A stretch of DNA of 64,000 bases from Candidatus Manganitrophus noduliformans. GTDB taxonomy: Bacteria; Nitrospirota; Nitrospiria; SBBL01; Manganitrophaceae. The DNA lies in assembly GCF_012184425.1 (NCBI RefSeq), contig NZ_VTOW01000003.1, forward strand, positions 62,001-126,000, given 5' to 3'. Each line of letters opens with the position of its first letter. Within the stretch, counting starts at the first letter, position 1. Below, one piece after another: positions 2,482-62,453 of this stretch. The translations under genes and the position numbers were made by a program. The notes beneath the pieces were generated by a model. It was not told the DNA's origin. It made no database searches and saw only the letters and a program-made list of their open reading frames with translations.

Positions 2482-2832
2482 GAAACCTGAAATCATTTTC
2501 GAATGAATTTTCCGAATTCCCCGACCGGAGGCCATTTTCAGAGAAGCCGTCCTCCGTTTAGGGGACCGATCGGAAAGATCCTGCCTGATCAAACGCCAAC
2601 CCTTTTTTGAAACGCTCCCCGGACTGAATCGAAGTGTGATTTTTCTGCAACTCACTTTTCTTTTTAATGTGGGCCTCCTTACGTCTCGCTGAAGAAAGCC
2701 GCGGGCGATGCCAAAAAGACCGTCCGCATCGGCGGGTGAGGAGGCCCGGCGATGCGGTCTTGTTTTTGCTCTTTAAGGAATAAGCAACCATGTCATTCCC
2801 CCTTTGGGGCCGGGGAGGTCGATTCGCAGGAG
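2482..2832 (+). other. Intergenic region between pilA and the oxidase gene
   Basis: No gene found. A weak hairpin (CGGAGG at 2526-2531 with CCTCCG at 2551-2556, then TTTA) may end pilA transcription. A longer hairpin with a T-rich tail lies at 2716-2767, directly before the oxidase start. An open frame from 2752 runs through that hairpin into the oxidase, but the residues before 2833 show no family resemblance. Confidence 0.5.
2716..2767 (+). terminator. Terminator-like hairpin before the oxidase gene
   Basis: The arm at 2716-2731 pairs with 2750-2761 (CGCATCG/CGATGCG core plus AAGAC/GTCTT, with a 4-nt bulge), followed by TGTTTTTGCTCTTT. It could end transcription from pilA or act as an attenuator for the oxidase operon. 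Confidence 0.5.
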
Positions 2833-5595
2833 ATGCCGGAGGAAAGGGAAGTCTATCAAGAAGAGACGTTGGTCAATCACGATCTGGTGAAGCGTTGGGC
2901 CTATGCGACGCTGGTGTGGCTGACCTTGTACCCGATCGTCGGCGTGATCCTCTCGATCAAGTTCCACCATCCGAACTTCCTCAACGAAATTTCCTGGTTT
3001 TCTTTCGGACGGCTCCGTCCGGTCCATGTCAACGGCGTTATCTTCGGCGCCTTCTCGACCGGCTTCATTGCGCTGCTCTACTACTTCGTTCCCCGAATCT
3101 GCGGCGTCCGGCTCTACAAAGAGCAATGGGGTTATCTTACTTTCTGGCTCTGGAATGCCGCGATCCTATTGGGAAGCCTCACCCTGATGGCCGGATTCAA
3201 CAAGGGGATCGAGGCGGGGGAATATCCCGTCTGGGTGGGCGTCTTGATCATGATCGTTTTGGTGATGACGACCCTCCAGGTCTACGGGACGGTCTTTCGG
3301 CGGCGGGAACGCAGGGTCTATGTTGCCCTCTGGTATGCGATGGCCGCTCTGATCTGGACGGCGATGAATTATCCCCTCGGAAATTTCATCCTTCCTTTCT
3401 GGATCAACGGCGTCAACAGCGCCGCGCTCCACGGCCTCTACCTCCACTATGTCGTCGGGCTCTGGATTACCCCGGCCGGTTTGGCATTGATCTACTTTTT
3501 CCTCCCCAGCAGCGTGAGAAACCCCCTCTACTCCCACAAGCTCTCCCTGATCGGTTTTTGGAGCATCGCCTTTCTCTATCCCTTTCTCGGGATCCACCAC
3601 TACCTCTACAGCCCGATCGCGGAGTGGACGCAGACGGTCGCCATCGCCTACGGGATTCTTCTCATCATTCCGGTCTGGACGGTGACGACGAACTTCTTCG
3701 GGACGATGCTCGGGAAATGGCATCTCCTGGCGGGGAAGCGGTCGTACGACTATGCGGCGAAGTTTCTGATCCTGGGAGCGGTGAATTACTTCGTCGGCTG
3801 TTTTCAAGGCTCGGTCGAAGCGCTCCGGCGGATGCAGCAGTTGACCCACTTCAACGACTTTACCATCTCCCACTCTCACATGACCGTCTTCGGGACATTC
3901 GTGATTTGGGTGACGGGAGGGCTTTATTACATCTGGCCGCGCGTCACGGGGCGCGAGCTCTGGAGCTGGCGGTTGGCGAGTTGGCATTTCTGGCTGGTCC
4001 TCTTCGGCGGAGGGATGATGGGGGTGATCCTGGCCGCGATGGGATTTATCCAAGGGGCCATGTTGGAGTACGGCGTCAACTTCACCGACAGCGTTGTGGA
4101 AATGAAGCCGTGGTGGGAGGCGCGGACCCTCTCCGGTATGGCGATGGACGTCGGGATGGCGCTCTTTTTCTACAATCTCTGGCGGAGCGCGCGCGACGGG
4201 GCGCCGATCGAGACGACCCCGGTTTCTCCCCGTCCGACGGCGGAGGCGCGGGCGCCGATGCATGCATCGGGACCGCTCGAGCGGCCCTCCGCCATCATCC
4301 TGATCGCCGGGGTGGCGTTTTTCCTCCTGGCGATCGCCATCCAATGGCTGATGCCGATTGCATTGGAGTCGAACTATGAGTTGCCCGTCCGGACGGTGCA
4401 GGGGATACAAATTTTGCCGACCGATTATACGGAGCAAGAAAAGCTCGGGAGGAAGGTTTATATTCGGGAAGGGTGCTGGTATTGCCATTCACAGTATGTC
4501 CGCCCCGTGACCGGAGAGGACAACCGTTGGGGTCCGGTTTCTCAGGCGGGCGAGTATACCTATGACATTCCCCATCTCTTTGGGACCCGTCGAATCGGAC
4601 CTGATTTATTCCGCGTCGGGCGAAAATACGGGGATGATTGGCACGTGGCCCATCACTGGGAGCCGCGCGCCGTGGTTTCCGATTCGATCATGCCCTCCTT
4701 TCGGTGGCTGTTCAACCCAGCCGATGCGAACGGCATACCGCAGATGAGCGAAGAGGGAAAGGCGCTCATCGCCTATCTCCAAAGGCTTGGGACTCAGATC
4801 GGCGACTGGCGGGAGGAATTTCTTCCGATCAGTGTCAACGCCGGCACCGCGCTTGATCCGAAGCGGGAGGTCTTCGAAATCGGAAAACGGGTCTACGCGC
4901 GCCGCTGCATCGGCTGCCACGGAGAGAAAGGGGACGGCAACGGGCCGTCGGCCCGGTTCTTGGATCCGAAGCCGCGCGATTTCACCCGCGGGATCTTCAA
5001 GTTCCGCTCCACCGGCGGGGGGGAGAATACCCTGCCGCTCGATGCCGATCTCTACCGGACCGTCACGCACGGCTTGTGGGGAACCGCCATGCCGGCTTGG
5101 CATGAGATTTCGGAGCTGGAGCGGGCGTCGGTCGTTCAATACATCAAGATCTTCTCCGACCGATGGAAGAACGAGGCCGTCCCTCCTCCAATCACGATTC
5201 CGCCTGAGCCGCCGGCCGATTCCGCATCGGTCGATCGGGGAAGAGCGGTTTATGCCGAGGCGGGTTGTCTCGGCTGCCACGGACCTCAAGGAAAGGGGGA
5301 TGGTCCGCTCGCCCCGATCCTGCGCGACGTCTGGGGAAATCCGGTCCGTCCGGCGAACTTCACCCTCCCGGCGGGGGCGCCGGGAGGGGTCAAACTGGGA
5401 CACGACGCCAGGCACCTTTTCACTGTGGTGATGACCGGGGTCGGCGGAACGCCGATGGAGGCTTTCTCAAAGCGGCTGACGCCGGAGCAGGTCTGGGATG
5501 TCGTTTATTTTGTCCGGTCCCTTTATCTTCAGGCGCGAGAGGAATTTTTGGAGAAGCGACGCGTGGGAGCATCGGCGCAGACGGCGCGGCGCTGA
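2833..5595 (+). CDS. cbb3-type cytochrome c oxidase, fused CcoN-CcoO with di-haem CcoP-like tail
   Basis: A 920-residue inner-membrane protein that would couple cytochrome c oxidation to O2 reduction. Residues about 10-470 are a complete CcoN: H65 and H349 (low-spin haem), H205, H255 and H256 (CuB), H347 (high-spin haem) and Y249 (crosslink tyrosine). These positions match the Pseudomonas subunit within a few residues. After a linker, a membrane helix (about 485-505) opens a CcoO domain with haem site CWYCH at 548-552 and the typical YVRPVTGED stretch. Two further class-I cytochrome c domains follow, CIGCH at 692-696 and CLGCH at 812-816, as in the periplasmic part of CcoP. Such an N-O-P fusion is not the usual three-gene layout. 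The start is uncertain: ATG 2833 lies close to AGGAG, and an ATG at 2752 is also in frame. ccoS and a CcoP-like anchor follow. Confidence 0.88.
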   Translation: MPEEREVYQEETLVNHDLVKRWAYATLVWLTLYPIVGVILSIKFHHPNFLNEISWFSFGRLRPVHVNGVIFGAFSTGFIALLYYFVPRICGVRLYKEQWGYLTFWLWNAAILLGSLTLMAGFNKGIEAGEYPVWVGVLIMIVLVMTTLQVYGTVFRRRERRVYVALWYAMAALIWTAMNYPLGNFILPFWINGVNSAALHGLYLHYVVGLWITPAGLALIYFFLPSSVRNPLYSHKLSLIGFWSIAFLYPFLGIHHYLYSPIAEWTQTVAIAYGILLIIPVWTVTTNFFGTMLGKWHLLAGKRSYDYAAKFLILGAVNYFVGCFQGSVEALRRMQQLTHFNDFTISHSHMTVFGTFVIWVTGGLYYIWPRVTGRELWSWRLASWHFWLVLFGGGMMGVILAAMGFIQGAMLEYGVNFTDSVVEMKPWWEARTLSGMAMDVGMALFFYNLWRSARDGAPIETTPVSPRPTAEARAPMHASGPLERPSAIILIAGVAFFLLAIAIQWLMPIALESNYELPVRTVQGIQILPTDYTEQEKLGRKVYIREGCWYCHSQYVRPVTGEDNRWGPVSQAGEYTYDIPHLFGTRRIGPDLFRVGRKYGDDWHVAHHWEPRAVVSDSIMPSFRWLFNPADANGIPQMSEEGKALIAYLQRLGTQIGDWREEFLPISVNAGTALDPKREVFEIGKRVYARRCIGCHGEKGDGNGPSARFLDPKPRDFTRGIFKFRSTGGGENTLPLDADLYRTVTHGLWGTAMPAWHEISELERASVVQYIKIFSDRWKNEAVPPPITIPPEPPADSASVDRGRAVYAEAGCLGCHGPQGKGDGPLAPILRDVWGNPVRPANFTLPAGAPGGVKLGHDARHLFTVVMTGVGGTPMEAFSKRLTPEQVWDVVYFVRSLYLQAREEFLEKRRVGASAQTARR

Positions 5596-9541: not shown

Positions 9542-10186
9542 ATGAAGTTCTTTTTGGATTCCGCCAACATTTCCGAGATTAAAGAGTCTGTTGCGCTGGG
9601 ATTGATTGACGGCATCACCACGAATCCTTCCCTGGTCGCAAAAGAGAAGAAGGATTTCAGGAAGCTGATCGAAGAGATCTGCCAAATCGTCGATGGACCG
9701 ATCTCCGCGGAGGTGGTTGCGACCGACGAAGAGGGGATGGTGGAGGAGGGGCGCTCCCTCGCCGGCATTCACAAAAATGTCGTGGTGAAGGTGCCGATGA
9801 CGGCGAACGGTTTAAAAGCAACCCGGCGTTTTGCGAAAGATGGGATTCGGGTCAATGTCACCCTCATCTTTTCTCCGGCCCAGGCGCTCCTTGCCGCGAA
9901 GGCCGGCGCCACCTATGTCAGCCCTTTTATCGGCCGGCTCGATGATGTCGGCCAGGTCGGTATGGATCTGATCGACCAGATCGTCACCATTTTTTCGAAT
10001 TACACTTTTAAGACCGAGGTCCTGGTCGCCAGCATTCGAAATCCGATCCATGTGATCGAGGCGGCACAGATCGGGGCCCACGTCGCCACCATGCCCTTCG
10101 CCGTTATTCAACAGCTTCTCAAACACCCGCTCACCGACATCGGGCTGGCCAAATTCCTCGCCGATTGGGAGAAGACGAAGGGGTAG
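9542..10186 (+). CDS. Transaldolase / fructose-6-phosphate aldolase family (TalC/FSA type)
   Basis: A 214-residue protein covering the whole short transaldolase fold: [22 protein letters not shown], then K83 in VVVKVPMT as the Schiff-base lysine, and later [12 protein letters not shown] and [10 protein letters not shown]. Short family members either transfer dihydroxyacetone units (pentose phosphate pathway) or cleave fructose 6-phosphate; sequence alone does not separate these. It is cytoplasmic, and the gene sits between the TPR lipoprotein and glycerate kinase in one transcription unit. GGAGC precedes the ATG at good distance. Confidence 0.92.
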
Positions 10187-10197
10187 GTTCTAATCCC

Positions 10198-11535
10198 ATG
10201 AACCCTCCTCCTGCGGGAAAGAAAGACCTCCAACAGCTCATTCCCCTTCTCCTCGATGCGCTCGATCCGGGGGCGCTTCTTCAAAAGAAAATCCGCTTTC
10301 GAAATAAGAAAATAGAATGGGACGGCCGGTCCTACCTTGTCGAACCGAACCGTTCGGTCTATCTGATCGGAGCCGGGAAGGGATCGGCCCGCATGGCCGA
10401 AGCCTTGGAACGGCTCCTGGGGGATGCGATCACCGACGGGGTGATCGTCACCAAAGATGGATACGGCCTCCCATGCCGGAAAATTCGGATCATCGAAGCC
10501 GGCCATCCGATTCCAGACGAGGCGGGAACAGCAGGAGCGAAAGAGATCCTTGCTCTCGCCCGCCGTGCAAACCGGGGGGATCTCGTCATCGGCCTCTGGT
10601 CGGGCGGGGGATCGGCCCTCCTCCCGTTGCCGGTTTCCGGGATTTCTCTCCAATCCAAACAGCAGGTGACCGATCTTCTCTTGCGTTCCGGCGCGGTGAT
10701 CGGCGAGATCAACGCCGTTCGGAAGCATCTCTCTCAAATCAAAGGGGGACAACTTGCCAAAGCGGTCGGTCCGGCCCGGATGGTGAACTTTATCCTCTCC
10801 GACGTGGTCGGTGACCGGCTCGATGTCATCGCTTCCGGCCCGACCGTGCCCGATCCGACCACTTTCAACGATGCGATCGAGATTTTGAAACGATATCGCC
10901 TTTGGGATGAGATCGATCCCTCCGTCCGCCTCGTCTTGGAAGAAGGAGCGCGGGGGGAGCGGCCCGAAACGCCGAAGCGGCTCGGCCGTCACATTGAAAA
11001 CATTCTGATCGGAAACGGCGAAACGGCGGTGAACGAAGCGGCCCGGCAATTGAGGCGGATGGGATTTCATCCTCACATTCTCACAAGTGTCCTTGAAGGG
11101 GAGTCACGCGAAGTCGCCAAGGTCCTTGTTGCGCTGGCCAAGGAGATCCAATTTCGTCGAAAGGGAAAACCGGTTTGCTTCATTGCCGGCGGTGAAACGA
11201 CCGTGACCGTCCGAGGCAAGGGGAAGGGAGGGCGGTGTCAGGAGTTTGCGCTTTCCGCCGCTCTTTCGCTGGCCGGAACGCGAGGGATCACGGCTGCGGC
11301 GCTCTCGACGGACGGGACCGACGGTCCCACCGACGCGGCGGGGGCGGTCGCCACCGGGGAGACGGTGCAGCGGGCGACACGGAAGGGGATGGATCCTCGG
11401 ATGGCGCTGGCTGAGAACGACGCGTATCCCTTCTTTGATGCGCTCGGGGATCTGATCCGAACCGGTCCGACGCGAACCCACCTGAACGATCTTTATCTTT
11501 TGTTCATCCCGAGCGCTTCCGCGGAGGAGAATTAG
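10198..11535 (+). CDS. Glycerate 2-kinase, MOFRL family
   Basis: A 445-residue cytoplasmic enzyme of the GckA/TtuD type. The N-terminal domain has VYLIGAGKGSARMAEALE and the glycine-rich GLWSGGGSALLPLP. The C-terminal MOFRL domain has FIAGGETTVTV, GKGGRCQEFALSAAL and STDGTDGPTDAAGA. The reaction phosphorylates D-glycerate to 2-phosphoglycerate, feeding glyoxylate- or serine-derived carbon into central metabolism. ATG 10198 is preferred over an in-frame ATG at 10165 because the latter would overlap the aldolase gene. Together with the aldolase it forms a small sugar/organic-acid unit. Confidence 0.9.
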   Translation: MNPPPAGKKDLQQLIPLLLDALDPGALLQKKIRFRNKKIEWDGRSYLVEPNRSVYLIGAGKGSARMAEALERLLGDAITDGVIVTKDGYGLPCRKIRIIEAGHPIPDEAGTAGAKEILALARRANRGDLVIGLWSGGGSALLPLPVSGISLQSKQQVTDLLLRSGAVIGEINAVRKHLSQIKGGQLAKAVGPARMVNFILSDVVGDRLDVIASGPTVPDPTTFNDAIEILKRYRLWDEIDPSVRLVLEEGARGERPETPKRLGRHIENILIGNGETAVNEAARQLRRMGFHPHILTSVLEGESREVAKVLVALAKEIQFRRKGKPVCFIAGGETTVTVRGKGKGGRCQEFALSAALSLAGTRGITAAALSTDGTDGPTDAAGAVATGETVQRATRKGMDPRMALAENDAYPFFDALGDLIRTGPTRTHLNDLYLLFIPSASAEEN

Positions 11536-11689: not shown

Positions 11690-13243
11690 ATGACCCAGCA
11701 ACCATCCGTCCGTTTGTCGACCGGCATTGTCGGCCTGGATGAAATTCTCCAGGGAGGGCTGATCCCCGCCAGGACCTATATGGTGCGCGGAAAGCCAGGA
11801 ATGGGAAAAACCATCCTCGGTCTTCATTTTCTCACAGACGGCGCGACAAAAGGGGAAAAGGTGCTGTTGATTACCCTGGGGGAAGCGGAGGGGCAGATCC
11901 GTAAAAATGCATTGACCTTGGGGTTGGATCTATCCGGCATTTCTTTTCTCGATCTGAGTCCCTCCCCTGAATTTTTCTCCGAAGTAAAAACGTACGACAT
12001 CTTTTCCCCCGCCGATGTGGAAAGAGCGCCGACCACCCAAAAGATTATTGAAAAAATCGAACAGATCAAACCACAACGCGTTCTGATCGACGCGATCACG
12101 CAGTTCCGGTATCTCTCCCCCGACTCCTTCCAGTTCCGAAAACAGGTCCTCTCCTTTCTTCAGTTTCTCACCTCTCGAAAGATCACCGTTCTCTTCACCT
12201 CCGAGGGAACCGCCTCGGTTCCGGATGATGATTTGGAATTTATGTGTGATGGGGCGATCCACCTCGAAATGTCGGACCGGCAACGGAGTCTTTGCGTGAC
12301 CAAGTTCCGAGGCTCCGGCTTCCGAGGCGGCTGCCACACCCTCCGGCTGACCGATTCGGGGATCGTCGTTTCGCCCCGCCTCATTCCGGAAGCGCACCAG
12401 AGGGAGTTCATCGCCGAGTCGATCTCTTCGGGGGTCTCCCACCTGGACGATCTTCTGCACGGCGGTCTGGAGCGTGGCACCATTACCATGGTAACCGGTC
12501 CCAGCGGTGTCGGAAAAACGACCCTCGGCGTTCAGTTCATGAAGGAAGCGGCGGCCAGGGGCGAGCGCTCGGTCATCTACCTTTTTGAGGAGGCTGCGGA
12601 GACGCTCCTGCACCGGTCGGAGTCGATTGGTGTCCCGATTAAAAAAATGCTCGATCGGGGGACCCTCTCGGTGGTTCAGGTCGAGCCCCTTCAGTTTGCT
12701 CCGGATGAGTTTGCAAACCTGGTTCGGAAAGAGATTGAGGAAAAAAATACCCGAATCGTGATGATCGATGGGGTTTCCGGCTATCGGCTTTCCGTCCGGG
12801 GAGAAGATTTAATCAGCCATCTGCATGCCCTCTGCAGATATTTAAAAAACATGGGGGTCACGATCATTCTGATGAATGAGACCGAGGAGATTACCGGTGA
12901 CTTTCGCGCGACCGAAAAGGGACTGAGCTATCTGGCCGATAATGTGGTCTTTCTCCGCTATCTGGAATTAAACGGGGAGCTGCGAAAGGCGATCGGGGTG
13001 TTGAAGAAGCGTCTGACCGACTTCGAGAAGACCCTCCGAGAGATGGAGATTACCAAGGAGGGGATCAAAATCGGGGCGCCGATGGTCGAGTTGCGGGGTA
13101 TTCTGAGGGGTATTCCTGAATGGATCAGCAGCCCCAAGAAAAGGGAGGATAGAAGGGAAACCGGTCGTCCCTCTTCGACTCGCCCGACCAAAGCGGCGCC
13201 CCGGTCCGATCCAAAAGATCCGAGGGGACACCGGGAGCGGTAG
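11690..13243 (+). CDS. KaiC-like ATPase with two RecA domains
   Basis: A 517-residue cytoplasmic protein with two RecA/KaiC domains. Walker A motifs are GKPGMGKT at 34-41 and GPSGVGKT at 270-277. The second is followed by IYLFEEAAET, the double-glutamate site of KaiC; the first has ITLGEAEGQ at the same place. The C-terminus (about 440-517) is charged and variable. No kaiA or kaiB is nearby, so a clock is not implied; such KaiC relatives usually work as signalling ATPases with histidine kinases. Two kinases follow directly. ATG 11690 has GGGAG at the right distance; an in-frame TTG at 11654 does not. Confidence 0.86.
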   Translation: MTQQPSVRLSTGIVGLDEILQGGLIPARTYMVRGKPGMGKTILGLHFLTDGATKGEKVLLITLGEAEGQIRKNALTLGLDLSGISFLDLSPSPEFFSEVKTYDIFSPADVERAPTTQKIIEKIEQIKPQRVLIDAITQFRYLSPDSFQFRKQVLSFLQFLTSRKITVLFTSEGTASVPDDDLEFMCDGAIHLEMSDRQRSLCVTKFRGSGFRGGCHTLRLTDSGIVVSPRLIPEAHQREFIAESISSGVSHLDDLLHGGLERGTITMVTGPSGVGKTTLGVQFMKEAAARGERSVIYLFEEAAETLLHRSESIGVPIKKMLDRGTLSVVQVEPLQFAPDEFANLVRKEIEEKNTRIVMIDGVSGYRLSVRGEDLISHLHALCRYLKNMGVTIILMNETEEITGDFRATEKGLSYLADNVVFLRYLELNGELRKAIGVLKKRLTDFEKTLREMEITKEGIKIGAPMVELRGILRGIPEWISSPKKREDRRETGRPSSTRPTKAAPRSDPKDPRGHRER

Positions 13244-13276
13244 CGCCGTCAGGTCCAATGTTTTGAACGAGCCTTC

Positions 13277-14359
13277 ATGAACCGCATTTTGCTTCTGATC
13301 GATCATGATGAGAACCGCCGGCTGCTGGCAGAGTGGCTACAGAAGCGGTATCAGGCCGCGCTGGCCGGCGCTGCAGAGGACCTCCGGCAGCCGTTTGATT
13401 TGGGGATCGTGGACGGCCCCGCCCTCAGCCGTTTATCGAAAGAGATCCACGCCAGAAAAAAGGCCGAGCATCCCCGCTTTCTTCCGATGCTCCTGACTGT
13501 TTCTCGACCGGATGTAGCGCTCTTCAAACAGCATCTTTGGGAAAGTGTGGACGAGCTGATCGTCAACCCGATCGACAAGATGGAGCTGCTGGTCCGGATC
13601 GAAGTGCTGTTGCGCGCCCGCCGGTTTTCATCGGAGCTGAAATTTCGCAACGACGACCTGGAAGCGTACGCTCAAGCGCTGATGCACGATCTGCGGGCGC
13701 CGGTCCGGGCCGTCGGCAGCTTTGCGAAATTATTGGCTCAGGAGCAGAAGGAGAAACTCGATGAGCGGGGGAAGCACCAACTCGATCGGATCCAGTCGGT
13801 TGCGGAACAGGCGTGGGACATGATCGACGCTTTGCTCCACTTTTCCCGCCTGGAGCAAAAAGAGATCACGCTGCGAACGGTCCGGCTCGATTCCGCCGTC
13901 GCATCCTCTCTGAGAGATCTGCAAGAAGAAATTGAAGCGGCAGACGCGCAGGTCGTCATCGAGGGGGATCTCCCCGCGCTCAAGGCCGACCCGACCCTGC
14001 TCAGAATGGCTCTGACCGATCTTCTCTCCAATGCGATCAAGTATGTCGCGCCCGGAACGCGACCCCGGGTCGTTCTCTCGGCGACGAGCGGACCGCAAAG
14101 CCGGCGCATTCAAATTCAAGACAACGGAATCGGCATTTCGTCCGAACACCAACGCCGTATTTTTTCACCCTTTGTCCGCCTCCACGGCGTCGAGGAATAT
14201 CCGGGAATCGGGTTGGGGCTTTCGACCGTCCGGAAGGTGGTCGAAATGATGGGGGGCCGGGTCGGGGTCGAATCTTCTCCAGATGAGGGAAGCCTGTTTT
14301 GGATCGAACTGGATGTCGAGGAAAAGCCGAACAACATGGAAGGCGGGATGAAAATTTGA
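13277..14359 (+). CDS. Histidine kinase with N-terminal receiver-like domain
   Basis: A 360-residue soluble protein. Residues 1-120 resemble a receiver domain, with IDHDE near the start and D near 45 in FDLGIVDGPAL as the possible phosphorylation site. A HisKA domain follows with H137 in LMHDLRAPVR. The ATPase domain has LLSNAIKY (N box), QDNGIGIS (G1) and GIGLGLSTV (G2). No membrane segment. It lies 33 bp after the KaiC-like gene, and its stop overlaps the start of the next kinase. The arrangement points to a pathway in which the KaiC-like ATPase modulates or is read out by these kinases; this is inferred from gene order. Confidence 0.82.
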   Translation: MNRILLLIDHDENRRLLAEWLQKRYQAALAGAAEDLRQPFDLGIVDGPALSRLSKEIHARKKAEHPRFLPMLLTVSRPDVALFKQHLWESVDELIVNPIDKMELLVRIEVLLRARRFSSELKFRNDDLEAYAQALMHDLRAPVRAVGSFAKLLAQEQKEKLDERGKHQLDRIQSVAEQAWDMIDALLHFSRLEQKEITLRTVRLDSAVASSLRDLQEEIEAADAQVVIEGDLPALKADPTLLRMALTDLLSNAIKYVAPGTRPRVVLSATSGPQSRRIQIQDNGIGISSEHQRRIFSPFVRLHGVEEYPGIGLGLSTVRKVVEMMGGRVGVESSPDEGSLFWIELDVEEKPNNMEGGMKI

Positions 14360-15588
14360 AGTTTCTCATCGTTGATGATAATCCGGACGACCGGGAGCTG
14401 ATTATTCAGGAGTTAAAGAAAGATTATCCGGATGCGGCCTATTCCGAGGTTTTCCGGAGACGCGATTTTGACGCGGCCCTGGCCGTGGGAGGTTTCGACA
14501 TGATCTTTACCGACTATCGACTCAACTGGACCGACGGTCTGTGGGTCCTCTCGCAATTCAAGGCGCATCACCCGCACCTCCCGGTCATTATGGTCACCGA
14601 TACCGGAAATGAGGAGATCGCCGTGAAGGGAATGAAAGCCGGCCTAAGCGATTACGTCTTGAAGAAGTATCTCTTTCAGCTCTTGCTGACGGTAAAAGAA
14701 ACGCTTGAAAAAGAAAAGCTGCGCAAAGAATATGAAGCGGCACAGAAAGCCCTGCGCGAGGCCCACGCTCAACTTGAAAGAAGGGTTGCGGAGCGGACCG
14801 CTGAATTGCTTGAGGCCAATACGGAGCTCCAACACGAGGTTGCCGAGCGGATCAGGACCGAAGCGGAGCTGAAGCAGAAAACGATCGAGGCCGAGGAGGC
14901 GAATCGAACAAAGTCCTATTTCCTCTCTTCGGTCTCGCATGAGCTGAAAACGCCGCTGAACGCCATTCTCGGCTACGCCCAACTTTTGATGGATGGCACG
15001 TACGGCCCCCTTCACGAAGAACAACGGAAGCCGTTGGAGGGGATCTTACGAAATGTCAAGGATCAATCGAAGCTGGTGAGTAATTTGCTGGACCTTACGC
15101 AGATCGAATCAAAAAAGATGGTCGTCGATATTGAAGAGGTCGATCTCCGGAAGTTGGTGGAGGACGTCTGTGTGGTGATGCAGCCGCTCTTCGAGAAGAA
15201 GTCGCTTTCTATTCATTGGAATATCGAGGCGCTTCCAATGGTCGAATCCGATCCTTACAAAATCAGACAGATCCTCATGAATTTGCTCTCAAACGCCTTG
15301 AAATTTACACAGACGGGCGGCGTGACCGTTTCGGCGCGGAGCAGGGCGCAAAACGAGGGGATCGAAATCGTCGTGAAGGATACCGGAATCGGGATTCCCG
15401 CGGAAGAGGTCCCGACGATCTTTAATGCGTTTCATCAGGTGGACAGAAAGACGACCCGGGAATTCGGGGGGGTGGGACTCGGCCTGGCCATCGTGAAAGA
15501 AATTGTTTCCTTATTAAAAGGGAGCGTCGGCGTTGAAAGCACCGTCGGAGCGGGCACGACCTTTACTATCTCCTTGCCCTACCGTTGA
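14356..15588 (+). CDS. Response regulator-histidine kinase hybrid (REC-HisKA-HATPase)
   Basis: A 410-residue soluble protein: a receiver domain (about 1-120, FLIVDDNPDD, D53 in FTDYRL), a long coiled coil (about 125-185, rich in Glu/Ala/Arg) and a HisKA domain with H195 in SVSHELKTPLNAILG. The ATPase part has LLSNALKF, DTGIGIP and GVGLGLAIV. The only start giving the whole receiver domain is TTG at 14356, which overlaps the upstream stop as TTGA and implies translational coupling. No DNA-binding output domain is present, so the phosphoryl group probably passes to another protein. Confidence 0.82.
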   Translation: MKFLIVDDNPDDRELIIQELKKDYPDAAYSEVFRRRDFDAALAVGGFDMIFTDYRLNWTDGLWVLSQFKAHHPHLPVIMVTDTGNEEIAVKGMKAGLSDYVLKKYLFQLLLTVKETLEKEKLRKEYEAAQKALREAHAQLERRVAERTAELLEANTELQHEVAERIRTEAELKQKTIEAEEANRTKSYFLSSVSHELKTPLNAILGYAQLLMDGTYGPLHEEQRKPLEGILRNVKDQSKLVSNLLDLTQIESKKMVVDIEEVDLRKLVEDVCVVMQPLFEKKSLSIHWNIEALPMVESDPYKIRQILMNLLSNALKFTQTGGVTVSARSRAQNEGIEIVVKDTGIGIPAEEVPTIFNAFHQVDRKTTREFGGVGLGLAIVKEIVSLLKGSVGVESTVGAGTTFTISLPYR

Positions 15589-15786: not shown

Positions 15787-16443
15787 ATGGATGAACATGA
15801 AGAGGCAAAGAAGGTGAAAGTCTGGGATCCGTTCGTTCGTTTCTTCCACTGGGCCTTGGTCTCGCTGGTCGCCGTCGCTTATTTCACCCAAGATCATCTC
15901 CTGGATCTGCATGTGTTGGCGGGGCTCTTGATCTTAGGGTTCATTTTCTTCCGGATCGTCTGGGGGTTCATCGGGACGCCGCATGCGCGGTTTTCAGATT
16001 TTGTTTTTCGTCCCAAGGTGGTCTTCGGATACCTGAAGGATCTGGTGACGTTGAAGGCCAAGCGATACATCGGCCACGGACCGGCCGGCGGGGCAATGGT
16101 CGTCGCGCTGTTGCTCGGATTGCTGGCGACGACCCTCTCCGGCCTCGCGCTGCTCGGCGGGCAGGAGTATCAAGGTCCGCTGGCCGGTTTGATGGCGGGA
16201 TTGGGCGGATTCTGGAGCGAGGCGGTGGAAGAGGTGCATGAATTCATTGCCGGACTGATTCTTTTTTTGGCATCAGTCCATGTGATGGGGGTCCTCTTCT
16301 CAAGCTGGGCGCACCACGAAAATTTGATCAAGGCGATGTTCACCGGCAGAAAGCGCGCGGGGGACGAGAAACGCCCTCCTGTCGGAATGGAGCCGGAACC
16401 GCTTCGAGAAAGGGCGGAAGGATGCGAAGGAGGTGTGCGATGA
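15787..16443 (+). CDS. Cytochrome b561-type membrane protein
   Basis: A 218-residue inner-membrane protein with four or five helices. It opens with VKVWDPFVRFFHWALV, the signature of di-haem cytochrome b proteins of the Ni/Fe-hydrogenase b-subunit type. Candidate haem ligands are the histidines in FFHWAL, LHVLAG, EEVHEF and SVHVMG. A charged tail follows. It would carry electrons from the quinone pool or another donor to the exported cytochromes encoded next; its stop overlaps the SHP-type gene by 4 bp. A b-type cytochrome next to SHP and di-haem cytochrome genes is a known arrangement in Rhodobacter. Confidence 0.85.
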   Translation: MDEHEEAKKVKVWDPFVRFFHWALVSLVAVAYFTQDHLLDLHVLAGLLILGFIFFRIVWGFIGTPHARFSDFVFRPKVVFGYLKDLVTLKAKRYIGHGPAGGAMVVALLLGLLATTLSGLALLGGQEYQGPLAGLMAGLGGFWSEAVEEVHEFIAGLILFLASVHVMGVLFSSWAHHENLIKAMFTGRKRAGDEKRPPVGMEPEPLRERAEGCEGGVR

Positions 16444-16847
16444 AATGGTTTTTGCAGATAAGTGCTGTGATGATGGTTTTTGTATCGGGTGCATCCTTTG
16501 CGAACGCCGCTGTGGTTGATGATCTGTTGGGACAATATCAGACGCAGGTCGGCGGCGCTTTCAGCGCGGAGGAGGGGAAGGCGGCATGGAACCGCTTAAT
16601 CCCCGATGCGAAAACGGGGGAGGAGCGAAGTTGCGCCGGCTGCCACGGGAGCGATCTGCGTCGCGTCGGAAAGCATCTCCAAACCGGAAAGCCGATCGAC
16701 CCGATGGCCCCGTCGGTCAACGCCAAGCGGCTGACCGACCCGAAATTTGTCGAGAAGTGGTTCAAGCGTAATTGCCAATGGACGCTGGGGCGGGAGTGCA
16801 CTCCCAAAGAAAAGGGGATGTTTCTGACATTTATCCAACATCAGTAA
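16440..16847 (+). CDS. SHP-like monohaem cytochrome c (DUF1924)
   Basis: A 135-residue periplasmic protein with a signal peptide cleaved near ANA (about 21-24) and one haem site CAGCH at 65-69. The following blocks, GKHLQTGKPIDPMAPSVN and KWFKRNCQWTLGRECTPKEKG, are the DUF1924/SHP hallmark. In the Rhodobacter protein SHP the haem can bind oxygen and other small ligands and is reduced by a di-haem cytochrome. The gene starts inside the stop region of the cytochrome b gene. Two extra cysteines (in RNC and REC) may form a disulfide. Confidence 0.85.
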   Translation: MKWFLQISAVMMVFVSGASFANAAVVDDLLGQYQTQVGGAFSAEEGKAAWNRLIPDAKTGEERSCAGCHGSDLRRVGKHLQTGKPIDPMAPSVNAKRLTDPKFVEKWFKRNCQWTLGRECTPKEKGMFLTFIQHQ

Positions 16848-16880
16848 CGCGAATTTACACCACTGCGAAAGGAGACTATA

Positions 16881-17444
16881 ATGAAAACGTCGACTTGGAT
16901 GGTCCTTGTGATCGGCGGATTATTTCTCATCGCCGGTTATTGGCGTGCAATGGCAGGTGAAGAAAAAATGGGAGAGCGGCTGATGGGAAGCGCCTCGCGC
17001 TCCGAAGTAATCCCGATCTCCAATGATCTTTATACGAAAGAGTGCGGCGCCTGCCACCTCGCCTATCCTCCCGGCCTGCTTCCGGCGCGCTCCTGGGAAA
17101 AGTTAATGAACGGCCTCTCTGATCATTTCGGAGACAACGCGGAGCTCGCCCCGGAGGATCAGAGCGCCCTTACCGATTACCTTGTGAAAAATGCGGCCGA
17201 TCGCTCAGGACAGAAACGTTCCGCGAAGGTGGTCCGCTCCTTGAAAAACGAAGAGGCGCCGCTTCGAATCTCGGAGGTTCCCTACATCGTCCGCAAACAT
17301 TACGAGATTCCCTCCCGATTGATTCAAGGGAATCCCAAAGTAAAGAGCCTCAGCAACTGCAACGCCTGCCACAAGCGGGCCGAGTCGGGCGCTTTCAACG
17401 AACACGACGTCTCTATCCCCGGCCACGGTGTGTGGGATGATTAG
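16881..17444 (+). CDS. Di-haem cytochrome c (DHC type)
   Basis: A 187-residue exported protein. An N-terminal helix (about 6-25) is a signal peptide or anchor. Haem sites are CGACH at 55-59 and CNACH at 160-164, separated by LPARSWEKLMNGLSDHFGDN, which is typical of the DHC family. In Rhodobacter DHC is the electron donor to SHP; the same adjacency is present here. AAAGGAG precedes the ATG. The final codons overlap the PepSY gene by 8 bp, consistent with one operon. Confidence 0.87.
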   Translation: MKTSTWMVLVIGGLFLIAGYWRAMAGEEKMGERLMGSASRSEVIPISNDLYTKECGACHLAYPPGLLPARSWEKLMNGLSDHFGDNAELAPEDQSALTDYLVKNAADRSGQKRSAKVVRSLKNEEAPLRISEVPYIVRKHYEIPSRLIQGNPKVKSLSNCNACHKRAESGAFNEHDVSIPGHGVWDD

Positions 17445-17766
17445 TCGGTCTGTTCCGTCTGAACGAGGCGCCTGGTTCAATGTTATCGTCTTCGTCGTTT
17501 TGATCCTGTTCCCAGGGGGCGCCCTTGCCGACGGCGATCACGACAGGGCCAAGCAGCTCAAAGAGGCCGGTGAAATCCTCTCGCTGGAGCAGGTGATTGA
17601 AAGGGCCAAGAGGGATCATCCCGGCCAGCTTCTTGAAGCCGAGCTGGACGAAAAGAAGGGACGGTTCATTTACGAGTTGGAGCTGCTCGACGAGGAGGGG
17701 ATTGTCTGGGAGTTGAAGTACGATGCAAAGAGCGGGGAGCTGCTGAAGGAAAAGCAGGAGCATTGA
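17437..17766 (+). CDS. PepSY-domain periplasmic protein
   Basis: A 109-residue protein with a hydrophobic N-terminal signal (about 10-27) ending in ALADG. A single PepSY-like unit follows: ILSLEQVIERAK, then LLEAELDEKKGRFIYELELLD and YDAKSGELLKEK. PepSY modules are inhibitory or sensory and are often encoded beside two-component systems and membrane cytochromes. The start at ATG 17437 overlaps the DHC gene; a GTG at 17428 is a possible alternative. It lies 3 bp before the response regulator, so it may give an envelope signal to the kinase encoded after it. Confidence 0.78.
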   Translation: MISRSVPSERGAWFNVIVFVVLILFPGGALADGDHDRAKQLKEAGEILSLEQVIERAKRDHPGQLLEAELDEKKGRFIYELELLDEEGIVWELKYDAKSGELLKEKQEH

Positions 17767-17769
17767 TCG

Positions 17770-18435
17770 GTGAGACTCTTGATCGTCGAGGATGACGCGG
17801 CGCTCTGCCGGCGGCTGAAAGCGGATTTGGCGCAGGCCGGATTCGCCGTCGATACGGCCGACAATGGCGTCGATGCGCAGTTCATGGGGAGCGAAGAGCC
17901 GTATGACGTCATTGTCCTCGATTTGGGACTGCCGGGCCGTCCCGGTTTGGAGGTCCTCAAAAACTGGCGCGCCGGAGGGAATCATGTTCCGGTGATTATC
18001 CTCACCGCGCGGGACGCCTGGCATGAGAAGGTCGAGGGGTTCAAGGCGGGGGGAGATGATTACCTCGCCAAACCGTTCCATACCGAAGAGTTGGTGGCCC
18101 GGATCAATGCCTTGATCCGCCGGACAAATGCAAAGGTGGGGGGGCGGTTGTCTCTGAAGGATCTGACCCTCGACGAGGAGCGCCAATGCCTCCTCACGCC
18201 GGAGGGCCGGTCGGTAGAACTGAGCGGGGTGGAGTTTCGCCTGCTTCGATATTTTATGACGCACCCCAATGCCATCTTGTCCAAAACCCGCCTCACGGAA
18301 CATGTCTACGATTTCGACTCGGAGAAGGAGAGCAATGTGATCGAGGTCTATGTCAACCGGCTGCGCCGGAAGATCGGCAAAGAGTGGATCGAGACCCGGC
18401 GCGGCCAGGGATACGTCTTGAGAGTCCCGGATTAA
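17770..18435 (+). CDS. OmpR/PhoB-family response regulator
   Basis: A 221-residue DNA-binding regulator. The receiver domain has LIVEDDAAL at the start, D51 in IVLDLGLPG as the phosphorylation site, and K in YLAKPF. The C-terminal winged helix has LSGVEFRLLRYFM, SNVIEVYVNRLRRKI and RRGQGYVL. It starts with GTG 17770 just after the PepSY gene and shares 1 bp with the kinase gene. It probably controls the cytochrome operon it belongs to; no binding site could be identified. Confidence 0.92.
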   Translation: MRLLIVEDDAALCRRLKADLAQAGFAVDTADNGVDAQFMGSEEPYDVIVLDLGLPGRPGLEVLKNWRAGGNHVPVIILTARDAWHEKVEGFKAGGDDYLAKPFHTEELVARINALIRRTNAKVGGRLSLKDLTLDEERQCLLTPEGRSVELSGVEFRLLRYFMTHPNAILSKTRLTEHVYDFDSEKESNVIEVYVNRLRRKIGKEWIETRRGQGYVLRVPD

Positions 18436-19826
18436 TGCGCTCCCTCCAGTCGCGTCTTACCGCCGGCCTCATCGTCAGCTTGGTCCTCCTTTTTCTTCTC
18501 CAATGGTGGATCGTCGGCGCCGCCATTCGGTCTCTCACGGAAAGCTACGTCGTATCGCGGCTTCGACACGACACGGAGAATATTCTCGCGGCGTTACTCA
18601 TCAGCGAAACCGCTTCTCCTTCCCTCGATCCGGAACGGATCGATCCAGTCTACAAAAGGGTCTTTTCAGGCCATTATTACCAAATTCGCCTTGGGGAAAC
18701 CGAGCTTCGGTCCAGATCGTTGTGGGATCAGGCGCTTTCCATCCCTCCGGTTGCGCCGGGGGACCGAACCACGCTCCACGCCGCCGGGCCGCAGGGGCAG
18801 CCCTTGCTCCTATCGGTCAGCGGGTTTAAAAAGCAGGATCGGGAGGTGGCGATCGCCGTTGCCGAGGACCTCTCGGCGGTGGAGGCCGACTTCCGGCGAT
18901 TTCAGCTTTTATACGGTCTGGTCTCCGCCGCCATTCTGGGAATCCTCATCCTTGCTCAAAGGAGGTTGATTGTGGCCGGGTTGGCGCCGCTCGAGAAGGT
19001 GCGCCGAGAGATCCTTTCCCTCGAACGGGGAGAGATCGGTCGGCTTCGGGAAGAGGTCCCCGGCGAAGTGCAACCGCTGATCCGAGAGATCAATCGATTA
19101 CTGGAAGCGATGCACCAGCGGCTTCAGCGCTCGCGCAACGCATTGGGGAATGTGGCCCACGCGCTCAAAGGGCCGTTGACCCTCTTGATGCAACTGGCCG
19201 ACCGCGAAGAGATAAAGAGATCGCCGGCGCTGCAAAAAGAATTGAGGGAGCAAACGGAGACGATCCGTCATTTGCTCGAGCGGGAACTCAAGCGGGCCCG
19301 GTTGGCGGGGAGGGCGCAGCCGGGGAAACCGCTGGCCCTCGCAGAAGAGATCCGCCACCTGGTCGGCGCGCTCAAACAAATCTATCATGAGAAACGGCTT
19401 ACGATTGAATGGTCGGTTCCGACCGAACGGGTGGTCCTAGGCGACCGTGAGGATATGCTGGAGCTGTTGGGGAATCTTCTCGATAATGCTTGCAAGTGGG
19501 GCCGCCGGAGAGTGATGCTCCTCCTGGAGCAGGGAACGGACGGGGGGGTGCTGATCTCCGTCGAAGACGACGGCCCCGGCTGTCCGCCGGAAGGGCTTCA
19601 GCGCCTCTCCGACCGAGGGGTCCGGATCGATGAATCGGCCGTCGGACATGGGCTGGGGCTTGCCATCGTAAAGGAGATTGTGACGCAGTATTCGGGAGAA
19701 ATTGGTTTCGGACGCTCCGAGCGGCTGGGAGGATTTCTCGTCCGGGTCAAGCTCCCTCCTTTTCGTCGTGATTCGGTGAGCGCCGCTCCGACCGGGAAGA
19801 TCGCCCCCGACGTTATCGATAGTTAA
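18435..19826 (+). CDS. Membrane histidine kinase of the PhoQ/QseC type
   Basis: A 463-residue inner-membrane sensor. Two helices (about 10-32 and 160-182) enclose a periplasmic domain of about 130 residues. A HAMP-like linker follows, then HisKA with H242 in [10 protein letters not shown] and an ATPase domain with [17 protein letters not shown] and [12 protein letters not shown] 18435 overlaps the regulator stop (TAATG). The layout is the usual one for QseC/PmrB-type sensors of cations or envelope state. Its last 14 bp overlap the convergent yajQ gene. Confidence 0.9.
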
Positions 19827-61469: not shown

Positions 61470-62453
61470 TTGAAAAAATCGCTTATCGGGAAAGTTAATT
61501 TACAAGAAGGAACCGATACCTCGGCCCTCTATGGAAGCTACGATCGCCACATCAAGATGATTGAGCAGGCCTTCAACGTTCGAATGACGGCGAGAGGGGA
61601 AGAGGTTACGATCGAAGGGGAGCCTGAACAGGTTCAACAGGTTGAGAAGGTCATCGCCGATCTCGCGAATCTCTCCAGAGACGGGTTCCGGGTGACGGCG
61701 GAAGATGTCAACTACGCCATCCAATCTTCCCAACAAAACGCCCCCGCTTCCGTCCGGGAAATTTATCAAGACGCCATTCCGGTTTTCGGGAAAAAGAAGC
61801 TCATCGCCCCGAAATCACCCTCCCAAAAAGAGTATATCGAAAGCATCCGAAAGCACGATATCGTGGTCGGGATCGGTCCGGCGGGGACGGGAAAGACGTA
61901 TCTCGCTATGGCCATGGCCGTCTCCTCTTTCCTCAAGAAAGAGGTAAACCGGATCATCTTAGCCCGTCCGGCGGTCGAAGCGGGTGAAAAGCTCGGTTTT
62001 CTTCCGGGGGATCTGGTTGAAAAGGTCAATCCTTATCTGCGGCCCCTTTACGATGCCCTCTACGATATGATGGAGGTCGATCGCGCCACGCGCCTCCTGG
62101 AGCGGGGGGATATCGAAATTGCCCCGCTTGCCTTCATGCGCGGGCGGACCCTCAACGACTCATTTATCATCCTTGATGAGGCCCAGAACGCCACGTCGGA
62201 GCAGATGAAGATGTTTCTGACGCGTCTGGGGTTCCGGTCGAAAGCGGTCGTCACGGGAGATATTACACAGGTCGACCTCCCGGTCGAACGGACCTCCGGG
62301 CTGATCGAAATCCAGGGGATTTTAGAAGAGGTCTCCGCGATCAAGTTTGTTTATTTCAGCGAGCGCGATGTCATCCGGCACCGTCTGGTCCAGGAGATCG
62401 TGAAAGCGTACGAGCGGTATGAGGGAAAGGGGGGAAAATCAAAGAAAAAGTAG
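61470..62453 (+). CDS. phoH: PhoH family ATPase
   Basis: A 327-residue cytoplasmic protein. An N-terminal KH-like stretch (NVRMTARGEEVTIEGEPEQV) precedes the PhoH domain: Walker A GPAGTGKT at 136-143, IILARPAVEAGEKLGFLPGD, Walker B FIILDEAQNATSEQMKM and GDITQVDLP. PhoH proteins bind ATP and RNA and are often next to ybeY, as here, which suggests a role in rRNA or mRNA handling. The start is TTG 61470, inferred because the family N-terminus is then complete. Confidence 0.93.
   Translation: MKKSLIGKVNLQEGTDTSALYGSYDRHIKMIEQAFNVRMTARGEEVTIEGEPEQVQQVEKVIADLANLSRDGFRVTAEDVNYAIQSSQQNAPASVREIYQDAIPVFGKKKLIAPKSPSQKEYIESIRKHDIVVGIGPAGTGKTYLAMAMAVSSFLKKEVNRIILARPAVEAGEKLGFLPGDLVEKVNPYLRPLYDALYDMMEVDRATRLLERGDIEIAPLAFMRGRTLNDSFIILDEAQNATSEQMKMFLTRLGFRSKAVVTGDITQVDLPVERTSGLIEIQGILEEVSAIKFVYFSERDVIRHRLVQEIVKAYERYEGKGGKSKKK

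Follow-up and report, generated by a model that had tools for sequence, protein, structure and literature searches.

The stretch analysed here (hereafter the window) comprises 64,000 nucleotides of the genome of Candidatus Manganitrophus noduliformans (G000; 5.17 Mb), positions 62,001 to 126,000 of contig NZ_VTOW01000003.1. Between positions 11690 and 15588 of the window, a gene for a KaiC-like ATPase (P0001) is followed on the same strand by genes for two kinases (P0002 and P0003) (Table 1). P0002 begins 33 bp 3' of P0001, and its TGA stop codon (14357-14359) shares bases with the TTG start codon of P0003 (14356-14358), giving the TTGA overlap by which an initial annotation had joined the two kinases. 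The two Walker sites that it had assigned to the ATPase were also recovered. Its description of two receiver-kinases held for P0003, in which Pfam recognizes the receiver, but not for P0002, in which the domain is a pseudo-receiver (hereafter psREC) that is invisible to Pfam and has lost the metal-binding Asp. As had been claimed, neither kinase has a DNA-binding output detectable by Pfam, which reported only HisKA and HATPase_c in P0002 and REC, HisKA and HATPase_c in P0003. Gene order, co-occurrence, clade, domain make-up and correlated divergence were computed here, and the association of the KaiC-like gene with the psREC kinase was confirmed as real, conserved and functionally linked.

Table 1. 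Features of the three-gene module in window coordinates (AF2, AlphaFold 2; ML, maximum likelihood; pLDDT, predicted local distance difference test; KaiC residue counts here and in the text omit L037, in which the KaiC reading frame is broken)
Feature	Position	Strand	Basis
KaiC-like two-domain ATPase P0001, 517 aa, clade A (ATG start at 11690, stop at 13243)	11690..13243	+	Pfam, ML tree, AF2 model
Walker A of CI, GKPGMGKT, residues 34-41	11789..11812	+	sequence; Walker Lys in 84/84 clade rows
YDIFSPADVERAP, residues 102-114, occupying the KaiC B-loop slot (KaiB/SasA docking loop)	11993..12031	+	alignment; AF2 pLDDT ~48
Walker A of CII, GPSGVGKT, residues 270-277	12497..12520	+	Walker Lys in 84/84 clade rows
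Ser413-Tyr414 at KaiC S431/T432 positions	12926..12931	+	alignment; Ser 83/84, Tyr 83/84 in clade
Pseudo-receiver histidine kinase P0002, 360 aa	13277..14359	+	Pfam, AF2 model
psREC, degenerate N-terminal receiver of P0002, (beta-alpha)5, last helix continuous with HisKA helix	13277..13636	+	alignment, profile, AF2 model
HisKA and HATPase_c of P0002	13670..14320	+	Pfam
TTGA stop/start overlap of P0002 and P0003	14356..14359	+	sequence
REC-HisKA-HATPase_c kinase P0003, 410 aa	14356..15588	+	Pfam
P0003 receiver	14365..14685	+	matches Pfam Response_reg

P0001 belongs to the KaiC superfamily, with two KaiC (PF06745) stretches detected by Pfam (E value 3.8e-78) and a match to KaiC at 2e-58 among the PDB sequences, and its AF2 model (pLDDT 85) aligned with KaiC crystal structures over 470 residues (Z 37.4, root mean square deviation 3.9). 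The closest named relative, from Candidatus Manganitrophus sp. GAC4, shares 96% identity. Clock KaiC models scored P0001 below their cut-offs, at 183 of 546 bits for TIGR02655 and 270.9 of 408 bits for NF006799. Glutamates as in KaiC, which the initial annotation had ascribed to the ATPase, are present as a pair in CII (E300/E301) but not in CI, where G64/E65 retains the second Glu only. At the S431/T432 pair of clock KaiC, P0001 has the Ser (Ser413) with Tyr414 in place of the Thr, a Tyr found in 83 of the 84 clade rows. Judged on gene content and neighbourhood, P0001 also lacks the KaiB and KaiA partners of a clock KaiC. Some KaiC3 homologues likewise carry Tyr at the phosphorylation pair (Schmelling et al. 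2017, PMC5520375).

The N-terminus of P0002, in which Pfam detected no receiver, aligns with receivers over residues 1-118. A profile built from 37 psREC sequences matched PleD (E value 2.7e-13) and other receivers in the PDB, and the AF2 model of P0002 (pLDDT 86) had a (beta-alpha)5 topology with its final helix extending into the HisKA helix (residues 101-156). Foldseek listed mainly kinase cores for P0002 and was discarded as fold evidence; the fold of psREC was therefore assigned from the profile matches together with the model topology. Among 82 sequences, the second acidic, metal-binding position (DD2) was occupied by Gln in 36, His in 33, Asn in 12 and Glu in one; Lys was present at the Lys position in 24 and Asn13 was invariant. 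Because these losses fit the definition of a pseudo-receiver as one without one or more of the five active-site residues (PMC12632262), we classify the domain as such, and psREC of P0002 is unlikely to accept phosphate. The Pfam Response_reg model matched 3 of 38 psREC proteins at 1e-4, the match in L036 being C-terminal. The receiver of P0003 retains the DD, D, T and K residues, as judged by eye. Given the (beta-alpha)5 model and the profile matches to receivers, P0002 does not have the N-terminal KaiB-like thioredoxin fold of SasA, and it scored 112.5 bits against a cut-off of 342 for NF006800 ('histidine kinase', PRK09303), which we take to be a label for SasA. A separate, stand-alone degenerate receiver was seen 3' of KaiC in 46 of the 84 clade loci (e.g. 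L035, L036 and L058, between KaiC and psREC) and is missing from the window; it has the pattern N.RNLELL, and the Lys-Pro is kept and the metal-binding acid lost.

Co-occurrence across genomes, on which the initial annotation had made its interpretation depend, was borne out. Within the phylum, KaiC of the P0001 clade (at least 52% identity) was found in 5 of 295 genomes (G000, G183, G096, G160 and G207) and psREC, at no less than 130 bits, in the same five, the next psREC score being 59.8. A motif scan then picked out loci in the genome collection that encode YDIFS[PA]A[DE] or D[SAP][IM]TQFRY, and the best 80 of 160 relatives were kept; these loci came from Cyanobacteriota, Chloroflexota, Myxococcota, Thermodesulfobacteriota, Gemmatimonadota and Verrucomicrobiota as well as Manganitrophus. 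A downstream gene on the same strand encoded an N-terminal psREC in 78 of these 80, and in one of the other two (L127) the contig ends approximately 600 bp past KaiC. KaiC genes outside the clade had no psREC beside them (0/34), the generic receivers there scoring 39 bits at most. The median spacing between KaiC and the next same-strand gene was 20 bp, with 66 of 82 spacings at 100 bp or less. All 29 whole genomes examined for psREC and KaiB, which were picked for holding the module, had one psREC next to the clade KaiC that scored no less than 133 bits. Viral contigs gave 20 matching stretches, none of them a relative. Cultured organisms known by name, such as Calothrix, Microcoleus, Dictyobacter and Haloferax larsenii, also carry the pair. 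In cyanobacterial genomes G297, G300, G296 and G307, additional psREC paralogues (L172-L175) scored 79-130 bits at sites remote from the clade KaiC.

Nor is the arrangement a product of chance within the genus: four of the six genomes contain the clade KaiC together with the REC-bearing P0003 orthologue at the expected spacing, whereas the remaining two, including one that is just 72% complete, have neither. P0002 itself was seen in three of the four and was deduced from the gap in G324; in G327, the coordinates of which match those of GAC4, the P0003 homologue lies in two frames. At the Candidatus Manganitrophus GAC4 locus (L056, ~9654-10900), these are open frames of 263 and 177 aa, the window copy being intact.

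An ML tree of 76 KaiC rows placed all 42 representatives of the P0001 clade on one side of a branch with 100/99 support, with KaiCs approximately 35% identical to P0001 as the sister rows. Plasmid-borne relatives were taken from the first 40 of 248 records, and the 22 regions retrieved comprised 15 haloarchaeal, one cyanobacterial and six proteobacterial ones. FastTree analysis of 54 rows separated clade A, with 18 bacterial and 15 haloarchaeal rows (support 0.956), from clade B, with nine rows (1.0), the two together being supported at 0.979. Directly 3' of KaiC in all nine fetched clade B loci was a kinase with another degenerate receiver-like domain at its N-terminus, named psREC2, as opposed to the psREC of clade A (also called psREC1). 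The psREC2 profile, seeded with three of the nine clade B loci (L038, L039 and L166), scored 80-114 bits in the six proteobacterial plasmid loci and did not exceed 19.5 bits at any locus of clade A; the window's own genome gave weak matches only (best 25 bits), and no clade B locus had psREC1 as an N-terminal domain. A specific psREC1-psREC2 homology beyond receiver likeness was considered and found unsupported (hhalign probability 1.4%, E value 0.035). At the phosphorylation pair, clade B had SY in six rows, TY in two and SF in one. On the Acaryochloris plasmid pMB01 (L180), a clade A KaiC with a TY site was observed with the psREC kinase divergent upstream.

The B-loop of KaiC CI is the binding place of KaiB and SasA (PDB 5jwr and 6x61). 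In the alignment, this slot reads YDIFSPAEVEREP in clade A, with a related LHPSEVE-type sequence in clade B and an FDLSAL-type loop in canonical KaiC, and in the monomer AF2 model of P0001 it has the lowest confidence of the core (pLDDT 48). YDIF was found there in 84/84 clade rows, a conservation that is partly built in because the motif scan selected partly on the YDIF peptide. Among rows free of this bias, L034-L036 keep YDIF, and haloarchaeal rows have the Tyr in 15/15 and YDIF in 6/15.

We consider it fairly probable that the three genes form one KaiB-free, SasA-like signalling module, in which psREC docks on KaiC CI and gates a swappable output. Because the two are repeatedly found together in many bacteria and in some haloarchaea, psREC probably reads the KaiC-like protein. 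Sister clade B, in which KaiC is followed by a kinase with a degenerate receiver of its own, follows the same design and favours this reading. We infer the hexamer, autophosphorylation, docking and its site, gating, the direction of phosphate flow and the input signal as follows. P0001, probably hexameric like KaiC, would cycle ATP and probably autophosphorylate (Ser413 in CII), operating without KaiA or KaiB, and its nucleotide or phosphorylation state would be sensed by psREC of P0002. Docking would most likely take place on the CI ring, close to where the B-loop is altered, in the manner of KaiB and the N-terminal domain of SasA in the cyanobacterial clock. Since the last psREC helix runs into the HisKA helix, docking could gate the kinase, and the His of P0002 would then probably phosphorylate the intact receiver of P0003, the kinase of which would pass on the signal; in this genus, such a His-to-receiver relay is conceivable. 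Other outputs would be gated by psREC in relatives.

The domain make-up of 38 non-redundant psREC proteins bears on the direction of the signal. HATPase_c was found in 32, HisKA in 30, GGDEF in three, HD_5 in one and SpoIIE in one; the outputs change behind a constant N-terminal psREC, and the pattern is therefore adaptor-like. What unites the family is KaiC together with psREC, rather than a kinase output. The initial annotation had proposed a phosphorelay steered by an ATPase switch: gene order in several phyla speaks strongly for the functional coupling, whereas the phosphorelay stays a proposal, given a pseudo-receiver and outputs such as GGDEF, HD or SpoIIE. It is also conceivable that the flow is reversed, with the kinases or pseudo-receivers acting on the KaiC-like ATPase as the output and psREC as its regulator, much as KaiA and KaiA3, both with receiver-like N-termini, act on KaiC, KaiA3 promoting KaiC3 autokinase activity (PMC11372060). 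Stand-alone receivers downstream of KaiC would suit this arrangement; they occur at 46 of 84 clade loci, and 3 of the 15 haloarchaeal loci have no other partner. However, psREC lies N-terminal to a catalytic output (histidine kinase, GGDEF, HD or SpoIIE) in most of the 38 proteins, which is the position of an input domain, and we regard reversed flow as unlikely.

Pairwise-distance correlations across 28 loci were 0.82 for KaiC-psREC, 0.61 for KaiC-histidine kinase and 0.43 for psREC-histidine kinase, the last two domains being on the same chain. When columns were bootstrapped and taxa subsampled (300 replicates), the KaiC-psREC value exceeded that of psREC-histidine kinase in all replicates and that of KaiC-histidine kinase in 98%. 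At the level of KaiC domains, 48 loci gave 0.70 for CI-psREC, 0.52 for CII-psREC and 0.59 for CI-CII, with CI-psREC above CII-psREC in 97% of 500 replicates; for 28 cyanobacterial loci, the values were 0.84 for CI-psREC and 0.59 for CII-psREC. These distances are compatible with psREC docking on CI. They also count against the idea that psREC is a small-molecule or redox sensor serving its kinase independently of KaiC, the neighbours being merely co-regulated. The pseudo-receivers of CikA, KaiA and ShkA do bind quinones or c-di-GMP (PMC12632262), but psREC is linked nearly one-to-one to one KaiC clade and correlates more closely with KaiC than with the kinase on the same chain, which makes such a sensor improbable.

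No KaiA was found in the source genome, and its two KaiB genes lie in tandem on another contig (contig 6, L041) beside the third KaiC of the genome; the absence of a KaiA or KaiB partner, as stated in the initial annotation, was thus upheld. The L041 locus, with the third KaiC, two tandem KaiB genes and a PAS-kinase, is a KaiC-KaiB-histidine kinase arrangement in the same genome as the KaiB-free module. In keeping with a KaiB-free module, a genome-wide search found no KaiB in 7 of the 29 module-bearing genomes, and among the others the nearest KaiB was 38 kb from the clade KaiC. A clock or hourglass, in which the KaiC-like protein is a timer using KaiBs encoded elsewhere in the genome, would draw on the two KaiBs of this genome and on the hourglass suggested for the sister type, itself without KaiB (De Luca et al. 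2011, PMC3164672), but is very improbable, as these KaiBs adjoin another KaiC, 7 of 29 module genomes have none and the B-loop slot is unlike that of canonical KaiC.

Several observations weigh against a KaiB-free module in which psREC reads KaiC. The second psREC-less locus of the motif scan (L067) has KaiC with a stand-alone receiver only, a second, weaker psREC lies away from the clade KaiC in 6 of the 29 module-bearing genomes, and the P0003-type third gene is lineage-specific. Association is looser in the 15 haloarchaeal loci: psREC of at least 65 bits was directly downstream in six and nearby on the other strand in one, four had a weak N-terminal receiver (28-44 bits), three a stand-alone receiver only and one none. 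Asp46 is retained in 68 of the 82 psREC sequences, so that phosphorylation is possible. Co-inheritance of KaiC and psREC with shuffling of kinase domains would be the source of part of the correlations. Finally, residue mutual information between KaiC and psREC (effective number of sequences 55) was diffuse, the top pairs sharing a few variable columns; 70 of the top 100 pairs fell in CI, against 49% expected, an excess to which no weight is given. At some of the six haloarchaeal loci with psREC directly downstream, another psREC kinase follows, so that three genes are arranged as in the window.

How does the module relate to known KaiC systems? The archaeal KaiC family was reportedly described as signalling hubs joined to two-component proteins by Makarova, Galperin and Koonin (mBio, 2017; cited in PMC5847659). 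SasA is a soluble kinase with an N-terminal adaptor that reads KaiC, and P0002 is proposed to share this design; the adaptor of SasA has a KaiB-like thioredoxin fold, whereas that of P0002 has a receiver fold. The pseudo-receiver of CikA is C-terminal and binds KaiB, whereas psREC is N-terminal and no KaiB is encoded nearby. Among the 60 PDB sequences listed for the psREC profile, none bore the name CikA or KaiA. Like psREC, the receiver-like domains of CikA and KaiA are pseudo-receivers wired to a KaiC system (PMC12632262).

The nearest arrangement is that of De Luca et al. 2011 (PMC3164672), whose comparison of KaiC contexts describes a KaiB-free KaiC group (SY, TY and SF sites; 'dark-blue', with Ramlibacter) that is always followed by a kinase, Nt_HK. 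The N-terminal domain of Nt_HK (RtaNt) resembles a receiver and, weakly, SasA/KaiB; co-transcription with KaiC was demonstrated, and Nt_HK was proposed as a KaiC-binding kinase family (PMC3164672). As the sites of clade B are exactly SY, TY and SF, we take clade B to be this dark-blue group. The window shares with the pair a KaiC-like ATPase that has one of these sites, a histidine kinase behind it whose N-terminal domain is distinctive, and the lack of KaiB, but its KaiC falls in clade A with psREC1 and not in clade B with psREC2, whose profile stays at or below 19.5 bits in clade A loci. The same paper put three SY proteins ('light-blue') in a third, less ordered context (PMC3164672). Clade A is probably this light-blue group. 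The locus prefixes of the three proteins are presumably those of Nitrosococcus, Chloroflexus and Haloarcula. Thus the theme of KaiC plus an adaptor-kinase is known from the sister arrangement (De Luca et al. 2011), and the clade A-psREC1 variant appears to be new: neither psREC1, nor its near one-to-one association with clade A, nor the swapping of outputs was found described in the open-access literature searched, as distinct from subscription papers.

More tentatively, the KaiB-independent branch of KaiC may span bacteria and haloarchaea, with pseudo-receivers having replaced both KaiB and the SasA adaptor as readers of the CI ring; the branch would then work like a plug-in socket, combining a single type of KaiC-like ATPase, one dedicated pseudo-receiver type per clade, and outputs freely swapped (histidine kinase, diguanylate cyclase, HD phosphohydrolase and SpoIIE phosphatase); many filamentous cyanobacteria would then run such a module beside their circadian clock. 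If true, KaiC signalling would be able to dispense with KaiB. The switching of bacterial pseudo-receivers has been called a mystery (PMC12632262), and the present analysis predicts a defined ATPase as the partner of one coherent family of pseudo-receivers, which the Pfam receiver model mostly misses and for which the cultured organisms with the pair offer test systems.

A promoter and terminator scan gave matches no more numerous than in shuffled sequences. On the 3' side of the module, the forward strand (15787-19826) carries genes for cytochrome b561, DUF1924 and a DHC dihaem cytochrome, and after these, in the same stretch, an OmpR-type regulator and a PhoQ-like kinase. Elsewhere in the window (2752-5595, forward strand), a 947-aa open reading frame joins COX1, FixO and two cytochrome-c stretches, that is, cbb3-type oxidase subunits in one fused chain.

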